Assembly: GCA_025358085.1 (NCBI GenBank)
Contig: JANYKT010000175.1
Span: 1-54,910, forward strand
DNA length: 54,910 nucleotides
Source of the DNA: Deltaproteobacteria bacterium
Lineage (GTDB): Bacteria > Myxococcota > Myxococcia > Myxococcales > 40CM-4-68-19
Direction: 5' to 3'
The position numbers and the translations under genes were made by a program. Of the stretch, positions 1 to 12,906 are shown piece by piece. The number at the start of each line of letters is the position of its first letter. Position 1 is the stretch's first letter. Under the pieces are notes generated by a model. The model searched no databases. It saw only the letters and a list, made by a program, of their open reading frames with translations, and was not told the DNA's origin.

Positions 1-97
1 GCATCACGACCGGCGCGGCGTAGGCGAACAGGAATGCCAGGACCAGCCCCGGCACCACCAGAAAGAAGAGGCCGACCGTCACCGCGATGCCGGTCAC
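1..97 (-). CDS. Membrane protein, N-terminal fragment (runs off window)
   Basis: Read leftward from a GTG at 97, this frame stays open to the window edge and gives about 32 strongly hydrophobic residues, including the stretch GLFFLVVPGLVLAFLF. The VVPG turn followed by a second hydrophobic run resembles the integral membrane segments found in GPDPase-membrane or DUF975-type proteins, but too little is visible to name a family. The GTG overlaps the TGA of the DUF1275 gene (GTGA, 97-94), which is typical of translational coupling. The start is inferred from that overlap only. Confidence 0.4.
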   Translation of the reverse strand, partial: MTGIAVTVGLFFLVVPGLVLAFLFAYAAPVVM

Positions 98-903
98 TTC
101 CCCGCGAGGGAAGGTGCCGAACGGCTCGCAGGTGTCCCCCAGCCCCGCGACCCCAGTCCCAGCTGGATATCGAAGGCGGCAAGACCGCAGAGCAGCGCGA
201 CCGGAATGAGCATCGCCCAGTGGCCGATGACGAGATACAGCGCGGGTCCGCCCGTCGCTCCAGCGAGGAAACAACCGAACACCCTCAGGTGGAGTCTCAG
301 GTGCCTCGCTTCCACGTCGCGGCTGACGTCGCCGATCAGGCGCAGCCGCGTGCGGATGGGGCGGTCGGAGGAGGCGTCCCGCCAGCGGTCGAACGCCTTC
401 ACCGCTTCGATGCCGATGTCGGTGACGACACCGGTCAGGTGGGTGGTGCGGATGCGCGCGCCCGAGAGCTTGGTCACCAGCGCATTCTGGACGCCCATGC
501 CGATGCAGATGAGCGAGGTCATCGTGAAGCTGTTGATATGGACGCCCCGCTGGCTGCCCGCGCCGACGCTGGCACTGGCGAACAAGAAGAGGATGGCGGC
601 TTCGAGGAGCAGGGGCCGCCAGTAGGCTGGCTCCGCGCGCCGGCGGGAGTACAGGACCAGCGCGGTCGCCATCATCGCGCCGAACATGAAGCAGCCAAGA
701 AAGACGAAGGAACGCGTGGCCAGCCAAAAGTGGCGCTGTGCCAATTCGTCTCCGGCGCGCGAGACGACTCCCGTCATGTGCGAGGTATAGGTGCCCACCG
801 CGAAGAACCCGCTGGCGTTGACCGCCCCGGCGATGGCGGGGAGCAGGGTGGCGAGGACGTTCCTCTCGAACTGCACCTTCTGGATGAGAAACCTTTGCAC
901 CAA
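94..903 (-). CDS. DUF1275 (YoaK-type) integral membrane protein
   Basis: This is a 269-residue polytopic membrane protein. The N-terminal region has the DUF1275 signature: AGAVNASGFFAVGTYTSHMTG near residues 25-45, followed by a second conserved block around GMGVQNALVTKLSGARIRTTHLTG at about 136-158. Six or so hydrophobic segments are visible. The family is widespread and its transport or other role is not established. Translation probably starts at TTG 903 or GTG 900, with GAGGTG just upstream. It lies downstream of a small pseudo-receiver gene and of the sigma-54 activator, on the same strand, so it may be co-regulated with them. The C-terminal tail after the last membrane segment is short and low in complexity. 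Confidence 0.85.
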   Translation of the reverse strand: MVQRFLIQKVQFERNVLATLLPAIAGAVNASGFFAVGTYTSHMTGVVSRAGDELAQRHFWLATRSFVFLGCFMFGAMMATALVLYSRRRAEPAYWRPLLLEAAILFLFASASVGAGSQRGVHINSFTMTSLICIGMGVQNALVTKLSGARIRTTHLTGVVTDIGIEAVKAFDRWRDASSDRPIRTRLRLIGDVSRDVEARHLRLHLRVFGCFLAGATGGPALYLVIGHWAMLIPVALLCGLAAFDIQLGLGSRGWGTPASRSAPSLAGK

Positions 904-965: not shown

Positions 966-1355
966 TCAGCCAGACCGCTTCAGGCCGAGGACGATCTCCA
1001 CCGAGCGGAACAGCGCGTCGGGGAGAAGGGGGCAGCGCAGGACGCCGATCCCCAGCGTGGCCCAGGACTCGGGATCACCGGAGTGTCGATTGCGGATGGC
1101 GAGCAAGGGAATGCCGGGGCGGGTCCGCCTGACGGCCGCGACCAGCCGTTCCACCGCCGCAGAAGCCGCTTCGGGACAGGCGATGACGAGCGAGATGGAA
1201 GATCGGCGCAGGGCGGCCTCGGCATTGTCGACGGTGGAGACCCGGACCAGATCGAAGCCTTTGCCCGCGAGGCCGGCCAGCAGGCCGTCGGACTCCGAGA
1301 CTCCAGGGCCGAAGACGAGGAGAACCTTCCTGGGGTGTCGGGAGCGGACTTCCAC
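966..1355 (-). CDS. Stand-alone pseudo-receiver (REC-like) protein
   Basis: This 129-residue protein has the alternating beta/alpha pattern of a CheY-like receiver: KVLLVFG for strand 1, SLVIACP for strand 3, PLLAI for strand 4 and GVLRCPL for strand 5. The active-site residues are missing. The acidic pair after strand 1 is absent, the phospho-acceptor Asp at the end of strand 3 is replaced (IACP), and the Lys before the strand-5 proline is a Cys (RCP). It therefore probably does not use phosphorylation. It lies between the sigma-54 activator and the DUF1275 gene. GTG 1355 is the only start that preserves strand 1. No ribosome binding site is visible, and a -24/-12-like element lies at 1371-1385, so the transcript leader may be very short. 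Confidence 0.6.
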   Translation of the reverse strand: MEVRSRHPRKVLLVFGPGVSESDGLLAGLAGKGFDLVRVSTVDNAEAALRRSSISLVIACPEAASAAVERLVAAVRRTRPGIPLLAIRNRHSGDPESWATLGIGVLRCPLLPDALFRSVEIVLGLKRSG

Positions 1356-1424: not shown

Positions 1425-2834
<1,410 letters not shown>

Positions 2835-2859: not shown

Positions 2860-2872
2860 TGCCGATTCGGCA
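2860..2872. promoter_or_regulatory. Palindrome TGCCGATTCGGCA (putative EBP site, copy 2)
   Basis: A perfect 13-bp palindrome lies 26 bases upstream of the ATG of the EBP gene (2834), where it could overlap that gene's promoter. It matches the copies at 1428, 3033 and 3051. The position suits autoregulation by the EBP. Confidence 0.55.
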
Positions 2873-3032: not shown

Positions 3033-3045
3033 TGCCGAATCGGCC
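3033..3045. promoter_or_regulatory. Palindrome TGCCGAATCGGCC (putative enhancer, copy 3)
   Basis: This is a 12/13 match to the palindrome TGCCGAWTCGGCA. Its centre is about 90 bases upstream of the -24 element at 3130 and 18 bases from copy 4. The spacing suits binding of an NtrC-type activator at an upstream enhancer. Confidence 0.6.
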
Positions 3046-3050
3046 AGTCA

Positions 3051-3063
3051 TGCCAAATCGGCA
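3051..3063. promoter_or_regulatory. Palindrome TGCCAAATCGGCA (putative enhancer, copy 4)
   Basis: This is a 12/13 match to the palindrome, 18 bases downstream of copy 3. It therefore sits on nearly the same side of the helix, about 73 bases upstream of the -24 element. Together with copy 3 it forms a paired upstream activating sequence for the Ehr-like operon. Confidence 0.6.
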
Positions 3064-3129: not shown

Positions 3130-3145
3130 TGGCTCGCGTCGTGCT
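3130..3145 (+). promoter_or_regulatory. Sigma-54 (-24/-12) promoter of the Ehr-like operon
   Basis: The sequence TGGCTCGCGTCGTGCT carries the invariant GG and GC with the required 10-base spacing and matches TGGCAC-N5-TTGC at most other positions. Predicted transcription starts near 3156, about 33 bases before the chosen ATG of the first gene (3189). Two palindromes lie 70-100 bases upstream. Confidence 0.65.
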
Positions 3146-3188: not shown

Positions 3189-3872
3189 ATGGACCTCAAG
3201 ATTCTGGAAGCCGCGAGACTGCTCGACGTCGACAGCGACGAGGTGGCGCGCTGGATCCGCGACAAGGGACTGCGCGCGCACCGGTTCCAGGAGCAGTTCC
3301 GCATCAACAGCGTCGAATTGCAGGAGTGGGCGCTCGAGCACGGCATCCGGGTGCCGCCCGAGCTGATGGCAGTGAACCGGACGGCGAGCGGGCCGCGATC
3401 GGATCTCGCTGCCGCGCTCGCCCTCGGTGGGATGCACCTGGGCGTGCCGGGAACGACGCGCGACGAGGTGCTCGCCTCCGTCTCGCGGCTGCCAGGGATC
3501 CCGGCACCGATCGACCGCGACGCCCTGCTGCAGATGCTGCTCGCGCGCGAGATGCTCGCCTCGACGGGAGTCGGCCGGGGCATCGCCATTCCTCACCCGC
3601 GCAGCCCCCTGGTGCTCGACGTCGACGTGCCGCCGACGCTCCTGCTCTGCTTCCCGCGGCAGCCGGTCGACTTCAACTCCATCGACGGCCGGCCGGTGTG
3701 GGCCCTTTTCCTGCTCCTCAGCCCGACCGTGCAGGACCACCTGCGCATGCTCTCCCAGCTCTCCTACGCGCTGCACGACGCGCCCTTGCAGGCGATGCTC
3801 GAGCGGCGCGCGGACCTCCCCGCCATCCTCGCGCGGCTGCGCGAGCTCTCGACCACCAGCGGAACGCGCTGA
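3189..3872 (+). CDS. Helix-turn-helix / PTS EIIA (PtsN-like) fusion protein
   Basis: This protein is about 227 residues. The N-terminus (ILEAARLLDVDSDEVARWI, residues 5-23, continuing to about 55) is a MerR/excisionase-type helix-turn-helix. Residues about 85-225 form a PTS EIIA type-2 domain. The phosphorylatable histidine lies in GIAIPHPR (H136). Such domains regulate by phosphorylation and protein contacts. No transport components (EIIB or EIIC) are nearby, so a regulatory role for the following membrane complex is likely. ATG 3189 is preferred because AAGGA (3178-3182) is correctly spaced and because the sigma-54 promoter lies upstream at 3130-3145. An in-frame extension back to 3129 would start inside that promoter. 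One base separates its TGA from the next ATG. Confidence 0.88.
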   Translation: MDLKILEAARLLDVDSDEVARWIRDKGLRAHRFQEQFRINSVELQEWALEHGIRVPPELMAVNRTASGPRSDLAAALALGGMHLGVPGTTRDEVLASVSRLPGIPAPIDRDALLQMLLAREMLASTGVGRGIAIPHPRSPLVLDVDVPPTLLLCFPRQPVDFNSIDGRPVWALFLLLSPTVQDHLRMLSQLSYALHDAPLQAMLERRADLPAILARLRELSTTSGTR

Positions 3873-3873
3873 G

Positions 3874-5850
3874 ATGAACGTTCTCCTTGCCGCGCTGGCC
3901 GGTCTTGCGTGCGCGACGGCTTTGCCCTTGCTCCTCTCGCGCTGGGATCGGCTGGCGACGTTCGTGGGCGTGGTCTTTGGCACGGTCTCCTGTGCGGTCG
4001 GGCTGGCCGGTTCCCTGAAGGCCCTGCTCAGCTCCTCGCGCGCTTCCTGGAAAGGCCCATGGGGCCTTCCCATCGGCGAGCTGCGCCTCGGCATCGATCC
4101 GCTGTCCGCGCTGTTCCTCTGCTGCCTTTTTGGCGCCGGAATGGCTGCCTGCGTTTATGGAGGCACCTATCTGCGGGGCTGGCCTGGAAAGAAGCGGGTG
4201 GCCCTGGGCGCCGCTGGGCTGAATGTGTTGGTCGCCTGCGTGGCCATCGTCTTCCTCGCCCGCGACGGGATCGTCTTCCTTCTCGCCTGGGAAGGGATGG
4301 CGCTCACCTCGTTTCTGCTCATCGGATTCGAGCACGAACGCGCCGAAGTGCGCGACGGCGCGCTCTGGTACCTCGTCTTCAATCACTTCGGCGTCGCCTG
4401 CCTGTTCGGGCTCTTCGCCCTCCTCGGACGTGAGCTGGGCAGCTACGCCCTGCCGGGAACTTCGATCGTCGTCGGCGGAACCACCGGGGCCGCGTTGCTC
4501 GGACTCGGTCTTCTGGGATTCGGGACCAAGGCCGGCCTCGCCCCGCTCCACGTCTGGTTGCCGGCCGCCCATCCGGTCGCGCCCAGCCACGTCTCCGCGA
4601 TGCTGTCCGGAGTGTTGCTGAAGACAGGGGTCTACGGCCTCTTCCGCCTGCTGCTGATGGGAAGTCCGCCGGCAGCCTTCGCCTGGGTGCTGATCGCCCT
4701 CGGCGGGCTCTCCGCCGTCCTCGGCGCCATCAACCTGGTCGCGACCACCGACCTCAAGCGCTCGCTGGCCTACTCCAGCATCGAGAACGTCGGCATCATC
4801 GTCCTGGCGATGGGGTTGGGCGCGCTCGGCCTCGCCCAGGGCTCGCCGCTCCTGGCGGCGCTGGGCTTTGCCGGCGCCTTGCTTCATGTCATCAGCCACA
4901 CGGTCTTCAAGTCCCTGCTCTTCACCGCCGCCGGTTCGGTGGTCCACGCGACCCACACCCGCCGCCTCGACTCCATGGGCGGACTCGCCCGCCGCATGCC
5001 GGCGACCGCCTCGGTGTTCCTGATCGGCGCCGGCGCCGCCGCCGCCCTTCCGGGCCTCGCCGGTTTCGCCAGCGAGTTCTTTGTCTATCGCTCGCTGCTC
5101 GAGGCGCTGCAGCGCCTCCAGCCGGCGGGGCAGGTCATGGCGGCAGCCGGGCTGGCTGCGCTGGCTTTCACGGGAGGACTGGTCGCTGCGGGGATGGCGC
5201 GCGCCTTTGGCGTCGCGTTCAGCGGGACGCCGCGGACGGAGGCCGCCGCCGAGGCCCGCGAGCAGCCCGCCGGCATGGTGGTGCCGATGGCGGTGCTCGC
5301 CGCTTTCTGCATCGTGCTCGGCCTCGTGCCCAAGGCGGCGCTCGCCCTGGTGTCTCCGGTCATTGCCCAGGCCGGGCTCGACCCGAAGCTGTTGTCGCCG
5401 GCGATCTCGCAGGCGACGCTGGCGGGCGAGCTCGGGTTCGTCCTGCTCGCGCTCTGCGCGGGCCTCGCGGCGCTTCGCGGCCGGCTTCTCGGCAGGGCCC
5501 TGATCGCGACCGGGTCGACCTGGGGATGCGGTTACGTCGCGCCCACGCCGAGGATGCAACACACCGCCGCGTCGTTCGCCGATCCCGTCGTCCGCGTCGT
5601 CGGGAGCCTGCTGGACACGCGGCAGCTCGGCGCGGTCCCGCGTCTCGCCTTTCCTCCGCGGCTCGACTATGGATTCACCGCCACCGATCGGGTGGAGACG
5701 TCCGGATTCCGCGGGGCCCTGGCCTTCTGCGCGAGGCAACTCGCCGTCCTCCGCGCGCTGCACCGGTCGAGCCTTCAGCAATATCTGGTCTACATCTTCG
5801 TGGCCCTGCTCGTGCTCTTGTCCTATGCGGCGCGGCTGGTGCGGCCGTGA
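3874..5850 (+). CDS. hyfB: HyfB/NuoL-type antiporter-like subunit of Ehr complex
   Basis: This is a 658-residue polytopic protein of the Mrp/NuoL/HyfB proton-conducting family. The ion-channel residues are present: Glu in LAWEGM (E140), Lys in GTKAG (K219), Lys in LLKTG (K250) and Lys in DLKRS (K295). The signature HVWLPAAHPVAPSHVSAML at 226-244 is intact. A HyfB-like C-terminal extension (TGSTWGCGYVAPTPRMQHTA) is followed by a final membrane helix. It probably translocates H+ or Na+ as part of the membrane arm of the complex encoded by this operon. The chosen ATG lies 2 bases after the EIIA stop. Its TGA overlaps the GTG of a second, paralogous antiporter gene. Confidence 0.93.
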   Translation: MNVLLAALAGLACATALPLLLSRWDRLATFVGVVFGTVSCAVGLAGSLKALLSSSRASWKGPWGLPIGELRLGIDPLSALFLCCLFGAGMAACVYGGTYLRGWPGKKRVALGAAGLNVLVACVAIVFLARDGIVFLLAWEGMALTSFLLIGFEHERAEVRDGALWYLVFNHFGVACLFGLFALLGRELGSYALPGTSIVVGGTTGAALLGLGLLGFGTKAGLAPLHVWLPAAHPVAPSHVSAMLSGVLLKTGVYGLFRLLLMGSPPAAFAWVLIALGGLSAVLGAINLVATTDLKRSLAYSSIENVGIIVLAMGLGALGLAQGSPLLAALGFAGALLHVISHTVFKSLLFTAAGSVVHATHTRRLDSMGGLARRMPATASVFLIGAGAAAALPGLAGFASEFFVYRSLLEALQRLQPAGQVMAAAGLAALAFTGGLVAAGMARAFGVAFSGTPRTEAAAEAREQPAGMVVPMAVLAAFCIVLGLVPKAALALVSPVIAQAGLDPKLLSPAISQATLAGELGFVLLALCAGLAALRGRLLGRALIATGSTWGCGYVAPTPRMQHTAASFADPVVRVVGSLLDTRQLGAVPRLAFPPRLDYGFTATDRVETSGFRGALAFCARQLAVLRALHRSSLQQYLVYIFVALLVLLSYAARLVRP

Positions 5851-7630
5851 CGCAACTCCTCGCGGCAATGGCGGTCCTGGGGATCTCGGCGATCGCGGCG
5901 GCGATGCTGGTCCACCGTCGCGCGGCGGCCCTGGGCGCGTCTACAGCGGGCTGTCTGGTCGCGGCGGCGATCGGACTTCCTGCCGCCATCGGCGTGCTGG
6001 CCCGAGAGTCCACCGCGACCCTGGCCTGGACGACGCCCCTGGGTTCGGAAGCGGCGCTCACGCTCGATCCGCTCGCGGCCTGGTTCCTCCTGCCCATCCT
6101 CTTCGTCTCCGCGGTCTGCTCCGTCTACGGGCGCCGGTATTTCCTCGCCGGCCAACGTCCGCTCGGCTTTCTTGCCGCCGGCTTCAACCTGCTCGTTCTC
6201 GCCATCTTGGCCGTGGTGCTCGCTGCCGACGCCATCACCTTCCTGATGGCCTGGGAGATCATGAGGGTGGCCGCGTTCCTGGTGGTGACATACGAACACG
6301 ACCGCGCCGAGGTTCGATCCGCGGGCCTGCTCTACCTCGTGCTGACGCACGCCGGGACCACCTGCCTGCTCGCCTTCTTCGCCCTGCTCTGGAGGGGCGC
6401 GGGCTCGGCGCGGTTTGCCGCCATGGCGCTGCATTCGGCGTTGCCCGGCGGGTCGACCGTGGCGCTCTTTGCGCTGGCAGCGATCGGCTTCGGCTGCAAG
6501 GCGGGCGCCTGGCCGTTGCATTTCTGGTTGCCGGCGGCCCATCCCGTCGCGCCGTCGCACGTCTCGGCCTTGATGTCCCGGGATCGATCATCCTCATGGG
6601 CGCGGGCGTCGGTCTCGTGGCGCTCTCGACGGGGCATCCGGCGGTGGCCGCCCTCGGGTTTGCCGGAGCGCTCTTGCACGTCACCAACCACGCCCTCTTC
6701 AAGTCGCTCCTCTTCCTCGCCGCCGGCGCCGTCGGCAAGGCGAGCGGCACGCTGCAGATCGATCGGCTGGGCGGTCTCGCGCGCCGGATGCCGCGGACGG
6801 CGCTCTGCTTCACCGTCGGTGCGGCGGCCATCAGCGGACTGCCCCCCTTGAACGGGTTCGTCAGCGAGTTCCTCGTCTACCTGGCGCTGCTGGGCGCCAT
6901 CGTCAGCCTGCCCGTCGTTCCACAGTCGGCGGCCGTGCTCGCCTTTGCCGTGCTGGCCTGCGTGGGCGGTCTCGCCTCGGCCTGCTTCGCGAAGGCGACG
7001 GGGGCGATATTCCTCGGGGCCCGCCGCAGCCCCGAGGAGGCGGTGCCGCAGGAGGTCCCGGCTGAGATGCAGCTCTCGATGGGGGTCCTCGCGGCGGCGT
7101 GCCTGGGGATCGGGCTGGCCGGCTCGACGCTGATCGCCGGGCTCGATCCTGTGGTCCGCCAGTTCTCCGCCGTGTCGCTGCGGGAGACCGCGGCCCTGGG
7201 CGGCCTGACGCTGGTGGGGGCGCTCAGCGCGGCCTTGGTGGGCGCCGCCTTCGCCGCCTGGCTGTCGGTGCGGTGGCTGCTGCGGAGACGAACGGTGAAG
7301 ACCGGGCCCACCTGGGTCTGCGGATATCCGGCCGTCCAGCCGTCGATGCAGACCACGGCCAGCTCGTTCGCGCAGCCGCTCATCCTCGTCTTCAAGAACA
7401 TCCTGCTGCCGGTGCGCCACCAGTCCGGATCGAGCGCGGCTTTTCCTGCCGCCCTCGCCGTCGAGGAGCACTGCCCCGATCCGATCGAACGCTTCCTGCT
7501 CGGACCAGGCGTCACCGGCGGGGCCGTCGCCTTTTCCGTTGCCCGGCAGGCGCAGCCGAAGCGTGTGCAGTCGTACGTGCTGGCCATCTTCATCACGCTG
7601 GTCGGGCTGCTCTGGTGGAGGCTCGGATGA
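5847..7630 (+). pseudogene. hyfB: Second HyfB-type antiporter, internal deletion plus frameshift
   Basis: This tandem paralogue of the preceding gene starts at GTG 5847 (GTGA overlap). Frame 1 gives about 244 normal residues, including Glu in MAWEIM (E137), Lys in GCKAG (K218) and APSHVSALMS, up to about 6578. The protein then continues only in another frame, from SIILMGAGVGL to the TGA at 7628-7630. Aligned to its paralogue, about 61 residues are missing at the junction. These include the membrane helices with the conserved LLKTG and DLKRSLAYSS lysines. The restored length would be about 657 residues, matching the paralogue. The C-terminal half is otherwise well preserved (TGPTWVCGYPAVQPSMQTTA). 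Either the gene is newly broken or the assembly lost about 180-190 bases. The downstream gene overlaps it by ATGA, so the operon is otherwise intact. Confidence 0.85.
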
Positions 7631-8541
7631 GGGCCGCCCTTCACCTGCTCCTCTTCCTTGTCTTCCCGCCCCTGCTGATGGGGGTCATCAATCGCGTCAA
7701 GGCCGCCTTTGCCGGCCGGCGCGGCCCGCCCGTGCTGCAGCTCTACTTCGATCTCTGGAAGCTTTTGCGCAAGGGCGCCGTCTACAGCACCACCACCACC
7801 TGGATCTTCCGGGCCGGCCCGGTCGTCAGTCTCGCGGCCACGCTCGTCGCCGGGCTGCTCATGCCACTCGGCGGCGGGCTCCCCGCGCCCTTTGCGTTCC
7901 CCGGCGACGTGATCCTCTTCGCCTACCTTCTCGCCACCGCCCGCTTCGCGACGGTGCTCGCCGCGCTCGACACCGGATCTTCCTTCGAGGGGATGGGAGC
8001 GAGCCGCGAGGTGACCTTCTCGGCCCTGGCCGAGCCCGCGCTCTTCCTCTCCATCGCCGCGCTCGCGCTCGCCCGGCAGAGCATCTCGTGGACGTCCATC
8101 CTCTCCGGCCAGATGGCGGCGTGGCATCTCTTCGGTCCGGCGATGGCGATGCTGATCGGCGCGCTGGTGCTGGTCGCCCTGGCCGAGAACAGCCGGATCC
8201 CCTTCGACGACCCGACCACCCATCTCGAGCTCACCATGGTGCACGAGGTGATGATCCTCGATCACTCGGGCCCGGACCTGGCGATGATTCTCTACGGCGC
8301 CTCCCTCAAGCTGTTCCTGCTCGGCGCCATCGTGGTGCGGCTGGCCTTTCCCTTCGAAGCCAGCGTCCCCGGCCACGTGGCGCTCTTCGTCGCTGGCCTG
8401 CTGGTCTACGCGGTGGTGATGGGCGTCATCGAGTCGACCTTCGCGCGGCTGCGCATGGACCGCATTCCGCAGATCCTCATCGCCGCCAGCGTCTTCGCCG
8501 CGCTGGCCGTCGCCGTCATCCTCGTCCGGGTGAATGCATGA
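7627..8541 (+). CDS. hyfC: HyfC/NuoH-like membrane subunit
   Basis: This 304-residue, eight-helix membrane protein belongs to the NuoH/HyfC/HycD family. It anchors the hydrophilic arm of complex I and group 4 hydrogenases to the membrane. The family signature ENSRIPFDDPTTHLELTMVH is intact and carries the conserved acidic residues of the quinone- or proton-channel loop. The N-terminal FPPLLMGVINRVKAAFAGRRGPP loop is also typical. The ATG overlaps the stop of the broken antiporter gene (ATGA, 7627-7630), and its own TGA overlaps the next ATG (8538). Confidence 0.93.
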   Translation: MRAALHLLLFLVFPPLLMGVINRVKAAFAGRRGPPVLQLYFDLWKLLRKGAVYSTTTTWIFRAGPVVSLAATLVAGLLMPLGGGLPAPFAFPGDVILFAYLLATARFATVLAALDTGSSFEGMGASREVTFSALAEPALFLSIAALALARQSISWTSILSGQMAAWHLFGPAMAMLIGALVLVALAENSRIPFDDPTTHLELTMVHEVMILDHSGPDLAMILYGASLKLFLLGAIVVRLAFPFEASVPGHVALFVAGLLVYAVVMGVIESTFARLRMDRIPQILIAASVFAALAVAVILVRVNA

Positions 8542-9188
8542 ACGTCTCGCTCGATCTGGCCCTGGTCCTGGTCCTGGTTCTCTGCGTGGCCTCGGTGGGC
8601 ACCAGCCGGATCGGAGCCGCCATCCGCTATTTTTCTTTCCAGGCTGCCGCGGTGGCGATGGTCCCGCTCCTGATCGAGACCAGGTCGGGAGAGATCTCGG
8701 TGCACGCCTGGGTCCTCTTCGCCATGACCATCGTCCTCAAGGTCGTCGGCGTTCCCTACCTGCTCAACCGGTCGGTGCGGGAAGCCGCGGTGCGAACCGA
8801 AGTCGAGCCGCTGATCGGATTCGGCCTGTCGCTCGCGATCGGCGGCGCGCTGGTGGCGCTCTCGTTCGCCCTCGCCCGGCAGCTGCCGCTGTTGCAGAAG
8901 CCGCCCTCCGATCTGCTCATCCCGGTCGCCTTCAGCCTGCTGATGATCGGCCTGCTCCTGATCGTAAGCCGGTCCAAGGCGGTGACCCAGGTGGTCGGGT
9001 ATCTCATCATGGAGAACGGGATCTTCCTCTTCGGGCTGCTGCTGCTCGAGACCTTTCCCTGGCTGATCGAGATGGGCGTGCTCCTCGACCTCTTCGTCGC
9101 CGTGTTCGTCATGGGCATCGTCATCTTCCAGATCAACCGCGAGTTCGACCACATCGACTCGCACCAGCTCGATTCGCTGAAGGACTGA
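8538..9188 (+). CDS. hyfE: HyfE-like membrane subunit
   Basis: This 216-residue protein is almost entirely hydrophobic and corresponds to HyfE, whose C-terminal half is NuoK-like. Features include the long N-terminal hydrophobic block, the SRSKAVTQVVGYLIMENGIFLFG motif at about 150-172 and an acidic C-terminal tail (FDHIDSHQLDSLKD). Subunits of this type carry part of the proton pathway in the membrane domain. The start ATG lies in an ATGA overlap with hyfC. hyfF follows after 4 bases. Confidence 0.9.
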   Translation: MNVSLDLALVLVLVLCVASVGTSRIGAAIRYFSFQAAAVAMVPLLIETRSGEISVHAWVLFAMTIVLKVVGVPYLLNRSVREAAVRTEVEPLIGFGLSLAIGGALVALSFALARQLPLLQKPPSDLLIPVAFSLLMIGLLLIVSRSKAVTQVVGYLIMENGIFLFGLLLLETFPWLIEMGVLLDLFVAVFVMGIVIFQINREFDHIDSHQLDSLKD

Positions 9189-9192
9189 CCCC

Positions 9193-10620
9193 ATGCTGGC
9201 GACGCTGCTCCTGCTTCCGATCATTGCCGCGGCCGTCTCGCTGCCGCTCGGCTCCGATCGGGCGCGCGTCCTCCTCTTTCGCCTCGTCGCCCTGGCGCAC
9301 CTGGCCCTCGTCGGCGGGATCTGGTGGAGACCACCTTTGCCGCTCTTCGGCGGCTACCTCGCGCTCGATGCTCCCGGACTCCTCGTGCTCAGCCTGGGCA
9401 GCGTTCTCTTCGCTGGCGTCGCCGTGTACCTGGGCGGCTATCTCGACCGCGCCGAGCAGCGCCCACTGCGGATCTTCGTCGCCAGCCTGCTCTTGCTCGA
9501 GGGGGCCATCAGCCTGGTGACGGCTTGCCAGCACCTCGGACTCTTCTGGGTCGCCATCGAGATCTCCACCCTCTCCAGCGCGCCGCTCCTCTACTTCCAC
9601 CACAGTGGCCGCGCGCTCGAGGCCACCTGGAAATATCTGATCGTCAGCTCGGTCGGCATCGCCCTCGCCTTGCTCGGGACGGTGTTTCTCGCCGTCGCCG
9701 CCACCGACGGCTCCGGGGAGACGACGCTGTGGATCCGGGACTTGATGGCCGGGCGCGCCCTCTCCAAGCCCTGGTTGCATGCCTCGTTCGTCCTGCTGCT
9801 GATCGGATACGGCACCAAGATGGGGCTCGCGCCCATGCACGCCTGGAAGCCTGACGTCTACGGCGAGGCCCCCCCGCCGGTCGCGGCGCTGCTGGCGGGC
9901 GCGCTGACCAGCTGCGCGTTTCTCGCCGTGATGCGCATCACCGGCATCTGCGCCCGCGCCGGTGAAGCTCCCTTCGCCAGCTCGCTCCTGGTCTTGCTCG
10001 GGCTCGTCTCGATGGGGGTCGCGGCCGTCCTCATCGTCGGCCAGACCGACTATCGGCGGCTGCTCGCTTACTCCAGCGTCGAGCAGATGGGCATCCTGGT
10101 TTTCGGGCTCGGATTCGGCATCGCGGGAGGGCAGGGCGCCTTCCTCCACGTCCTCAACAATGCGCTCAACAAGGGGATCATGTTCCTCACCGCCGGGAAC
10201 GTCCTGCAGCTCTGCGGCACCAGCGCGATGGCGAGCACCACCGGCCTCTTGCGCCGGGCGCCCGTGACTGGCGTGCTGCTGCTGGTGGGCCTCTTCGCCG
10301 GCGTCGGGCTGCCACCCTTCGGCCTCTTCATCTCGGAGTTCACCATCCTGCGCGCGGCGCTCGCTGGCGGCGCCTCGGCCTGGCCGGCGGTGCTGTACCT
10401 CTTCTTCCTCGCCGTCATCTTCCTCGGGATGTGCGCCGCCGTTCTCCCCCTGGCGCAAGGGGAGGCGCGGGCCGGGGAGCTGCCTTTGCGCGAGCCATTG
10501 TCGACGACGATTCCGCCGGCGATCTTCGCGATGGCTGCGCTGGTGCTCGGGGTTTACGTGCCTCCGCCGCTGGCGCGGATGATCGACGCCGCGGCCCGGC
10601 AGCTGGGAGTCGCCGGATGA
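9193..10620 (+). CDS. hyfF: HyfF-type antiporter-like subunit
   Basis: This 475-residue NuoN/HyfF-type antiporter-like protein has about 13-14 membrane segments. The helix-5 glutamate is in WVAIEIS (E123) and a channel lysine is in GTKMGLAPMHAW (K209). The later conserved block reads DYRRLLAYSSVEQMG, with Arg instead of the DLK lysine found in HyfB. It should be the third ion-translocating unit of the complex. It starts 4 bases after hyfE, and its TGA overlaps the ATG of the large-subunit gene (10617). Confidence 0.92.
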   Translation: MLATLLLLPIIAAAVSLPLGSDRARVLLFRLVALAHLALVGGIWWRPPLPLFGGYLALDAPGLLVLSLGSVLFAGVAVYLGGYLDRAEQRPLRIFVASLLLLEGAISLVTACQHLGLFWVAIEISTLSSAPLLYFHHSGRALEATWKYLIVSSVGIALALLGTVFLAVAATDGSGETTLWIRDLMAGRALSKPWLHASFVLLLIGYGTKMGLAPMHAWKPDVYGEAPPPVAALLAGALTSCAFLAVMRITGICARAGEAPFASSLLVLLGLVSMGVAAVLIVGQTDYRRLLAYSSVEQMGILVFGLGFGIAGGQGAFLHVLNNALNKGIMFLTAGNVLQLCGTSAMASTTGLLRRAPVTGVLLLVGLFAGVGLPPFGLFISEFTILRAALAGGASAWPAVLYLFFLAVIFLGMCAAVLPLAQGEARAGELPLREPLSTTIPPAIFAMAALVLGVYVPPPLARMIDAAARQLGVAG

Positions 10621-12125
10621 GCGCGGGCATCCCCAAGGCAGCCGCGGAGTGCGCGTTCCCCAACGGCGGCGCGGTGTCCCTCGAGTCGGTTCCGGCGCTG
10701 CCTCTCTCCGCGCTGACCGCGGCGGCGACCGAGGCCCGCGATCGCCAGAAGGGGCTCATCGCGCTGCTCCCGCTCGTCGAGGGCGCCGCGAGCCGCCTGC
10801 TGCTCCTCCTCTCCGATCCGTCGAACGGGCACCTTTCCGCCTCGTCCTTCAGGCTGGAGGGAGCGAAGGAGTGGCCTTCGATCACCCCGTTCTGGTCCGC
10901 CGCGCACCTGTTCGAGCGCGAGATCTTCGAGCGCACGGGGTGGAAGCCGATCGGCCACCCCTGGCTGAAAGCGGTCCGCCGCCATCGCGAGCTGGAAGCG
11001 GATGGCGACGCGCCGGCGCATCCATTCCTGCGCGCCGAAGGAGAAGGAGTTCACGAGGTCGCGGTTGGCCCCATCCACGCCGGCATCATCGAGCCGGGCC
11101 ACTTCCGCCTGCAATGCTTCGGCGAGGAAGTCCTGCACCTCGAGATCCAGCTCGGGTACCAGCACCGCGCCGCCGAGCATCTCCTCGAGACGGGGACTCC
11201 GGCGCGGCGGCTCGCGGTGGCGGAGTCGATCGCCGGCGACTCTGCCGTCGGGCACGTCCTGGCCTACTGCACGGCGCTCGAAGGACTCGCCGGAACCAAG
11301 GTTCCCCTTCGCGCGCAAGCGATTCGCGGGGTGGCCCTCGAGCTGGAACGAATCGCAAACCACGTGGGCGACCTCGGAGCGCTGTGCAACGACGTGGGCT
11401 TCCTCCCCGGCGCCGCCTACTTCGGGCGGATGCGCGGCAATTTCCTCAACCTGCTCCTGGAGATTTCCGGGAGCCGATTCGGCAGGAGCCTGATCGTCCC
11501 CGGCGGCGTGCGCTTCGACATCCCTCCCGACCTGCAGGCGCGCCTGCTCGGGACCCTCGACAGGGACGAGCCGCAGCTGGAGGACATGGCCAAGCTGGTC
11601 TTCTCGACCCCTTCGGTCCTGTCCCGCTTCGAAGGAACGGGAACCATCAAGAGCGCGGCAGCGGTCGAATTCGGATTCGTCGGCCCCACCGCGCGGGCCT
11701 GCGGCGTGCCGCGCGACGTTCGCAGCGACCATCCCAGCGGCGTGTTCCAGTTCAGCCACATTCCGGTCGCGGTCGCGGAAGGCGGCGACGTGATGGCCCG
11801 CGCGACGGTCCGGTGGCTGGAGGTGCTCCGGTCGCTGCGGTTTGTTCGCGAGCAGCTGGAGAGCCTGCCGGCCGGCGCCTTGCGAAGGGAGCCGGGAGCC
11901 CCGCGCCGCTCAGCGCTGACCGTGGCATTGGTCGAGGGATGGCGGGGCGCCATCGCCCACGTGGTGATCACCGACGAGCAGGGCGCGGTGGCTCGTCATA
12001 AAGTCATCGACCCTTCCTTCCACAACTGGTTCGCGGTCACCCTTGCCGTCCGCCGGGCGCAGGTCTCGGACTTCCCGCTCTGCAACAAGAGCTTCAACCT
12101 TTCCTACGCCGGACACGATCTCTGA
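10617..12125 (+). CDS. hyfG: HyfG-like (NuoC-NuoD fused) large subunit lacking [NiFe] ligands
   Basis: This 502-residue protein has a NuoC-like N-terminal domain (about 40-145) fused to a NuoD/hydrogenase large-subunit domain. In [NiFe] hydrogenases the L1 motif (CxxC) and L2 motif (DPCxxC) hold nickel. Here the L1 region reads ESIAGDSAVGH (203-213), with no Cys at either ligand position. The C-terminal L2 region reads SDFPLCNKSFNLSYAGHDL, leaving at most one Cys (C489). There is also no C-terminal extension for protease maturation. A nickel site cannot form, so this is an Ehr-type or complex-I-like subunit rather than a hydrogenase. It may bind a quinone-like or other substrate. ATGA overlap with hyfF fixes the start. 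Confidence 0.92.
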   Translation: MSAGIPKAAAECAFPNGGAVSLESVPALPLSALTAAATEARDRQKGLIALLPLVEGAASRLLLLLSDPSNGHLSASSFRLEGAKEWPSITPFWSAAHLFEREIFERTGWKPIGHPWLKAVRRHRELEADGDAPAHPFLRAEGEGVHEVAVGPIHAGIIEPGHFRLQCFGEEVLHLEIQLGYQHRAAEHLLETGTPARRLAVAESIAGDSAVGHVLAYCTALEGLAGTKVPLRAQAIRGVALELERIANHVGDLGALCNDVGFLPGAAYFGRMRGNFLNLLLEISGSRFGRSLIVPGGVRFDIPPDLQARLLGTLDRDEPQLEDMAKLVFSTPSVLSRFEGTGTIKSAAAVEFGFVGPTARACGVPRDVRSDHPSGVFQFSHIPVAVAEGGDVMARATVRWLEVLRSLRFVREQLESLPAGALRREPGAPRRSALTVALVEGWRGAIAHVVITDEQGAVARHKVIDPSFHNWFAVTLAVRRAQVSDFPLCNKSFNLSYAGHDL

Positions 12126-12138
12126 ACGAGGTGACCTG

Positions 12139-12906
12139 GTGCTGCAGCTCTTCAAGACGAGATTCGAGCAAGGCAAAGCGACCGTCGCTTTCCCCTTTGT
12201 CGAAAAGCTGGCGGAGCGGTTTCGCGGACTCCCGCGGCTCTTGCCGAACCTGTGCAAGGACGGATGCCGGGCCTGCGCCGACGCCTGTCCGACCGAGGCG
12301 ATCCGACTCGCCCCCCTGCGGCTCGATCTCGGCGCCTGCCTGTTCTGCGGCCTCTGCGAGGAGGCCTGCCCCGAAGGAGCGATCAGGTTCGGCGAAGAAT
12401 ACGAGACGTCCTTCCGGACGCGCGAAGCGATGGTGCTGGACGGCGCCGAAGCGCGCCTCGCCACCGCGCTCGACGCCCGCATGCGCTCGCTCTTCGGACG
12501 CTCGCTGAAGCTCCGCTCGGTCGCGGCCGGCGACTGCAGCGGCTGCGCCGCGGAGCTGACCGCCCTCGGCAACGTCGTCTTCGACCTGGGCCGGTTCGGG
12601 ATCCAGTTCGTCGCCTCACCCCGGCACGCGGACGGCCTCGTCATCTCGGGTCCCGTCACCGCGAACATGCGCGCGGCCCTGAAGCTTGCTTACGACGCCA
12701 TGCCGGCGCCGAAGATCGTGATCGCGGTCGGCGCCTGCGCGATCAGCGGCGGCCCGTTCCGCGGATCTCCGGCAGCGAGCGACGGAGTTCCGCCGGATTT
12801 CCCCGTCGACCTGTACGTCGCCGGGTGCCCGCCGCACCCGCTCGCTCTCCTCGACGGCCTGCTCCGGCTGCTCGGTCGGATCGAGGGGGCCACCAACGGC
12901 GCCTAG
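12139..12906 (+). CDS. Ferredoxin-NuoB fusion (HyfH+HyfI) small subunit
   Basis: This 255-residue fusion starts at GTG 12139, preceded by GAGGTG. Residues 35-80 form a two-cluster ferredoxin domain with Cys at 39, 43, 46, 50 and 67, 70, 73, 77. Residues 115-250 form a NuoB/HyfI domain with the four ligands of the proximal [4Fe-4S] cluster: C133 and C136 in GDCSGC, C200 in GACA and C230 in AGCPP. It should carry electrons from a soluble donor to the HyfG-like subunit. In E. coli hyf these are two separate genes (hyfH, hyfI). No other hydrophilic electron-input module is encoded here. The operon ends with this gene. Confidence 0.9.
   Translation: MLQLFKTRFEQGKATVAFPFVEKLAERFRGLPRLLPNLCKDGCRACADACPTEAIRLAPLRLDLGACLFCGLCEEACPEGAIRFGEEYETSFRTREAMVLDGAEARLATALDARMRSLFGRSLKLRSVAAGDCSGCAAELTALGNVVFDLGRFGIQFVASPRHADGLVISGPVTANMRAALKLAYDAMPAPKIVIAVGACAISGGPFRGSPAASDGVPPDFPVDLYVAGCPPHPLALLDGLLRLLGRIEGATNGA

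Follow-up and report, generated by a model that had tools for sequence, protein, structure and literature searches.

A DNA-binding EIIA fusion protein at the head of Ehr and other ion-transport operons, a probable autoregulator acting through ATGTCC direct repeats

Why should a protein that joins a DNA-binding domain to an EIIA domain of the phosphotransfer system (PTS) be the first product of an operon for a membrane ion pump? The question is raised by a stretch of 54,910 nucleotides (the window; contig JANYKT010000175.1 of assembly GCA_025358085.1, Myxococcota), in which a gene for such a fusion, here called HTH-EIIA, precedes a cluster of the Ehr (energy-converting-hydrogenase-related) kind. 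Ehr complexes are widespread and have no known function or control, their function being described as unknown (PMC10284858), and both questions become testable once a regulator and its operator can be read from sequence. We find that HTH-EIIA recurs at the head of such operons and suggest that, where it does so, a phosphate relay driven by PEP may control ion pumping.

The fusion protein and its operon

The HTH-EIIA reading frame is open throughout, with AAGGA 6 bases 5' of its ATG (Table 1). An earlier note on this DNA, made from the letters alone, had described a helix-turn-helix fused to an EIIA domain with an intact phospho-histidine, H136, in the first gene of an Ehr-like operon and two bases ahead of the first antiporter gene. 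Both domains score above their Pfam cut-offs, HTH_17 at residues 7-50 (31 bits, cut-off 27) and PTS_EIIA_2 (PF00359) at residues 92-217 (64.8 bits, curated cut-off 27), and the first-gene position also held; the distance did not, as the stop codon TGA occupies 3870-3872 and the antiporter ATG begins at 3874, leaving a gap of one base. Fold comparison of the EIIA domain with 3urr gave a Z of 17.8 and an rmsd of 2.5 over 147 residues. H136 is present, as the His of GRGIAIPHPR, and aligns with the active-site His of PtsN; H184 is present too, and both are unchanged across 13 aligned relatives. The protein falls short of the PtsN equivalog threshold (TIGR01419 of NCBIfam, 52.6 bits against a cut-off of 138.7). 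Pfam found no PRD domains in it, and the linker between HTH and EIIA is about 20 residues.

A fold search run on the complete model hardly probed the HTH, so this domain was also predicted and searched alone. The top Foldseek row was then the BldC structure 6ama (E 9e-3), and comparison with 6amk gave a Z of 7.8 and an rmsd of 1.7 over 50 residues; this BldC match lies below a Z of 8, and other MerR/Xis-type domains score close to it. By sequence profile, BldC and RacA are among the closest relatives of known structure. The window protein, at 227 residues and with a fused EIIA domain, is not of the small single-domain kind that defines BldC.

Table 1. Positions of the features discussed, in the numbering of the window
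Feature	Position	Strand	Support
HTH-EIIA gene, 227 aa, first gene of the operon	3189..3872	+	AF2 model, pLDDT 92.7
Winged HTH, residues 1-50, BldC/MerR/Xis type; recognition helix DSDEVARW	3189..3338	+	Pfam HTH_17; RacA and BldC profile matches; BldC fold match
EIIA domain, residues about 71-222, PtsN/EIIANtr fold	3399..3854	+	Pfam; fold match 3urr
H136 codon, predicted phospho-histidine	3594..3596	+	PtsN alignment; invariant in relatives
H184 codon, second active-site-type His	3738..3740	+	Invariant in 13 aligned relatives; at least 90% in alignment A3
Sigma-54-like -24/-12 element TGGCTCGCGTCGTGCT, 59 bases 5' of ATG	3130..3145	+	Shuffle p 0.010
NtrC-like sigma-54 activator, GAFTGA intact, degenerate receiver without phospho-Asp	1425..2834	-	
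Palindrome TGCCGATTCGGCA, predicted operator of the divergent activator	2860..2872	.	At activator gene ends in close orthologues
Two further palindrome copies (3033-3045 and 3051-3063)	3033..3063	.	
EhrB1 antiporter-like subunit	3874..5850	+	
EhrB2 antiporter-like subunit	5840..7630	+	
HyfC/NuoH-like subunit	7621..8541	+	
HyfE-like subunit	8535..9188	+	
HyfF antiporter-like subunit	9193..10620	+	
HyfG/NuoCD-like large subunit without two CxxC nickel motifs	10608..12125	+	
Fused HyfH+HyfI (NuoI+NuoB) iron-sulfur subunit	12103..12906	+	

Downstream of HTH-EIIA the genes follow in the order B1-B2-C-E-F-G-HI. Both nickel-binding CxxC motifs are absent from the G subunit of the window and from 65 aligned relatives, so that the label Ehr-like was right and the operon, judged by its sequence, is of the Ehr kind and not a hydrogenase. 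The literature that we searched, which covers the subject in part, held nothing relevant on HTH-EIIA at hyf or ehr clusters; an earlier description is possible. Near the operon is a gene for a DUF1275 membrane protein (94-903, minus strand), and in some Desulfuromonadales a DUF1275 gene stands between HTH-EIIA and EhrB (L229:2204-2938, L221, L235 and L238). DUF1275 and pyruvate carboxylase were considered as conserved neighbours of HTH-EIIA and rejected, neither being found near the best 80 loci of named genomes.

Linkage across genomes

A single-sequence scan of genome contigs gave no match. A search of 60 related genomes yielded 15 full-length HTH-EIIA relatives, 37-73% identical, each directly 5' of the same type of cluster wherever the contig continues. 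In the Myxococcota as a whole, 23 of 195 genomes carry the full-length fusion, and an antiporter gene comes next in all 22 cases with downstream sequence. Ehr clusters without HTH-EIIA were also found in the order, so HTH-EIIA is a frequent, non-obligatory partner.

We then turn to the cross-phylum set, which consists of the best 80 loci found on scanning named genomes and includes Acidobacteria, Planctomycetota, Bacteroidota, Omnitrophota, Spirochaetes, Desulfobacterota and other phyla. EhrB directly follows HTH-EIIA in 57 of these, mostly with a gap of -30 to +55 bases; two more are divergent from or beside an Ehr cluster, 11 precede a CLC chloride channel with a CBS domain, five are at contig ends, and five lie elsewhere, two of them divergent from a gene for pyruvate phosphate dikinase (L098 and L109, both Omnitrophota and both with the operator described below). 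In Desulfuromonadales, HTH-EIIA also heads operons for SulP-type anion transporters (L245, L247, L250, L252, L255 and L258), preceded by that same operator. The family is thus not exclusive to Ehr. The earlier note had named a gene-neighbourhood search as its check and chance occurrence at this locus as what would speak against it; the comparison shows the fusion repeatedly heading Ehr operons across phyla, and with direct adjacency in 22 of 22 Myxococcota cases and in 57 of the best 80 cross-phylum loci the linkage, as read from gene order, is not chance. That the two are accidental neighbours at the window locus is a reading to which we give practically no weight.

Some further arrangements were seen. 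A conserved protein of about 275 residues, with the motif FRNTPFGRETLLQS and no Pfam match, follows the CLC gene in HTH-EIIA-CLC operons (L117:4392-5213, with equivalents in L099, L112, L114, L123 and L124). Tandem HTH-EIIA copies occur in Phycisphaerae/Planctomycetota (L052, L053, L062 and L082), and divergent pairs in Desulfuromonadales (L251 and L270).

A direct repeat in the promoters of relatives, and the promoter of the window

A direct repeat with a 10-base period, ATGTCC-N4-ATGTCC, was recognised in sequences upstream of HTH-EIIA, and is a new finding of this follow-up analysis. It was scored at 12 positions over 250 upstream bases, with control windows taken from the same loci. Matches at 11 or more of the 12 positions occurred in 20 of 78 Ehr-linked promoters of the cross-phylum set, 31 of which had already been viewed when the motif was named, against one of 746 control windows; about two thirds of the Ehr-linked copies in this set have no strong operator. 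Because of that prior viewing, a held-out set was fetched from previously unused genomes, consisting of 48 HTH-EIIA genes from the single order Desulfuromonadales and hence related to each other; here 44 of the 48 promoters match at 11 or more positions and 47 at 10 or more, the corresponding counts among 734 control windows being 0 and 7. Over 45 held-out sites, conservation falls on a -35 hexamer, on both half-sites and, more weakly, on a third half-site at +30 from the first, while the positions between these blocks are not conserved despite the kinship of the genomes.

The geometry of the site is informative. A TTGACA-like hexamer stands 26-29 bases 5' of the repeat in all 11 cross-phylum '+' sites, matching at six of six positions in ten of them, which places the repeat over the -10 element and start site, the predicted layout of a repressor site on a TTGACA promoter. 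On these grounds HTH-EIIA is most likely a repressor of its own operon. Repression may not be general, since promoters of the Bacteroidota type have the repeat at -80 to -100 and not over the -10 element, and there activation or another mode would be possible.

The repeat is, in addition, tied to the protein. Repeat-bearing loci encode a recognition helix of the VSEKTIYRW type, with Lys or Arg at HTH position 17 in 27 of 27 (p 5e-9) and Tyr at position 20 in 26 of 27 (p 1.5e-6), both p-values ignoring shared ancestry. It was not found in 12 Ehr promoters without HTH-EIIA, and scans of 20 whole genomes gave 0-6 copies each, the promoter copy being the sole one in two. Since the repeat tracks the recognition helix, precedes the SulP operons and is missing from Ehr promoters that lack the gene, HTH-EIIA is probably an autoregulator acting through it. 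It might instead belong to another regulator of energy metabolism, with HTH-EIIA merely lying downstream, and the few further copies per genome would suit such a regulator; we consider this improbable in view of the same three observations.

The window lineage, by its sequence, is an exception within the family. The helix DSDEVARW is acidic, with D17, E18 and A20 in place of K17, T18 and Y20, and the 250-base scoring found no ATGTCC repeat in the window, in its relative G009 or in most Myxococcota promoters. Upstream comparison and repeat scoring revealed no operator for the window's own HTH, and conserved 10-base direct repeats like those in the promoters of relatives are missing. Of the two mechanisms offered in the earlier note for control of the ion pump, DNA binding or contact with a subunit, the first thus gains strong comparative support, with a named operator, in the relatives, and lacks it at the window, where both the operator and the recognition residues are absent.

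A sigma-54 promoter with a divergent activator seems to have taken over control in the window lineage. Elements resembling the one in Table 1 occur in G009 and G019, the block conserved with G009 having been judged by eye; as no others show one, a sigma-54 promoter was rejected as a general feature of the family. In the activator the GAFTGA loop is intact; its receiver, in those orthologues that retain the domain, has lost the phospho-Asp and acidic pair. A palindrome, TGCCGAWTCGGCA, is present in three copies in the promoter region. It was considered as an operator for HTH-EIIA and rejected, since it tracks the activator gene even in loci without HTH-EIIA, and loci without the activator have no near-perfect copy; close orthologues of the activator have it at one end of their gene or at both, whether or not HTH-EIIA is present, and it is the predicted site of the activator. 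A small stand-alone protein with weak VpsR/receiver-like similarity is encoded beside the activator (966-1355, minus strand).

Phospho-relay, mechanism and known systems

The relay needed to phosphorylate the EIIA domain is encoded in these genomes: EI was found in all 46 fusion-carrying genomes tested and HPr in all 16 tested for it. The PTS_EIIC sugar permease family was not found in 15 of 16 HTH-EIIA genomes, the exception being that of the window, in which contig C211 carries two PTS_EIIC permeases; the earlier statement that sugar-transport partners are lacking is accordingly right for the locus and wrong for the genome. An HPr-EI fusion lies alongside these permeases on C211. Among proteins found by searches whose pattern did not contain the His, all 23 from Myxococcota have the phospho-His, as do 47 of the 48 from Desulfuromonadales; the scan that gave the best 80 loci is uninformative here, because its pattern contained the active His. 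The one departure, L242 in the held-out set, has Arg in place of the phospho-His, yet its operator is perfect, from which it follows that phosphorylation is, on the sequence evidence, not essential everywhere. Elsewhere, control of HTH-EIIA is presumably exerted through phosphorylation, and it is reasonable to suppose that the protein senses the energy state in this way.

These observations can be combined into a mechanism, to which we assign a probability of roughly 0.7: HTH-EIIA proteins would be widespread, dedicated one-protein regulators, the main branch of which represses its own ion-transport operon through ATGTCC repeats and is switched by PEP-EI-HPr, with the window lineage changed. 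A BldC-like winged HTH and a PtsN-like EIIA domain would together form the first product of the operon under their control, mostly an Ehr operon. In the main branch, the protein would oligomerise head to tail on ATGTCC-N4-ATGTCC in its own promoter and, with the repeats over -10/+1 of a sigma-70 promoter, the operon would most likely be repressed. The switch for DNA binding is presumably the phosphorylation of the conserved His through PEP-EI-HPr, in a direction that we infer, as we do binding, repression and the phosphorylation itself, and pump expression would thereby be tied to the PEP/pyruvate state. The comparisons themselves establish the fusion, its linkage, the operator with its geometry, the link of that operator to HTH residues, and the presence of EI. 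In the window lineage, HTH-EIIA may have as its target either a site that went unrecognised or a protein, the activator or a pump subunit.

The main competitor, which we regard as possible though distinctly less probable than not, is that HTH-EIIA works chiefly by protein contact, its EIIA domain binding an Ehr, CLC or SulP subunit and gating transport, and that DNA binding merely balances its own level. The protein is made first and beside the membrane subunits, its family is associated with ion transporters of three unrelated kinds, and the window lineage keeps the EIIA domain though the known operator is gone; there is also a precedent in PtsN, which in its unphosphorylated form inhibits the K+/H+ antiporter YcgO of E. 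coli, according to a study cited in a review of PTSNtr (PMC13104625). However, the transporter folds are too different for one obvious contact surface, and the operator geometry already fits a transcriptional role. A partnership specific to the window, in which phospho-EIIA supplies the divergent sigma-54 activator with its missing signal, would account for a receiver without the phospho-Asp motif and for the activator palindromes and sigma-54-like promoter in the intergenic region, but Ehr clusters that lack HTH-EIIA (L169, L170 and L175) have this activator and its palindromes as well, so the activator does not need the fusion protein, and we think such a partnership unlikely.

Returning to autoregulation by HTH-EIIA, we give slightly better than even odds to its widest form, a phylum-spanning class of phospho-relay switches that autoregulate Ehr, CLC and SulP operons through ATGTCC repeats or lineage variants of them, with the PEP/pyruvate ratio setting how strongly a proton- or sodium-pumping complex is expressed. 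If true, it would provide a direct route from a nitrogen-type PTS to the transcription of pumps without sugar transport, and would bring three kinds of ion transport together under a single family of regulators. The operator-bearing promoters offer a reporter, and the EIIA domain points to the signal to vary (PEP/pyruvate, EI or HPr).

Compared with known systems, the operon has the subunit set of Ehr complexes (B-C-E-F-G-H/I) and likewise lacks nickel-binding cysteines; it differs in being headed by HTH-EIIA, a gene unmentioned in the Ehr and hydrogenase papers searched. With EIIANtr (PtsN), HTH-EIIA shares the EIIA fold, the active-site His pair, the absence of a dedicated permease and the presence of EI and HPr in the genome, but it has a DNA-binding domain of its own, sits in a transport operon and coexists in the window genome with an ordinary rpoN-hpf-ptsN locus. 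The PRD-type PTS-controlled regulators, such as MtlR and LicR, carry PTS domains, in some cases EIIA, in one chain with an HTH. Like them, HTH-EIIA would be a transcription regulator that joins a PTS domain to an HTH; unlike them, it has no PRD or EIIB module, its HTH is of the BldC type, and it is found with ion-transport targets and not in a sugar operon. To the BldC family the wing-HTH is matched in sequence profile and in fold, and the predicted target in the relatives is, like that of BldC, a direct repeat with a period of about one turn. BldC binds direct repeats head to tail (PMC5859096), and its published site, CAATTCGGACAATTCGGACA, also contains GGACA-N4-GGACA. The period is 9 bases in BldC and 10 in the HTH-EIIA repeat, and whereas BldC is a protein of 68 residues with no sensor, HTH-EIIA is fused to a phospho-acceptor domain.
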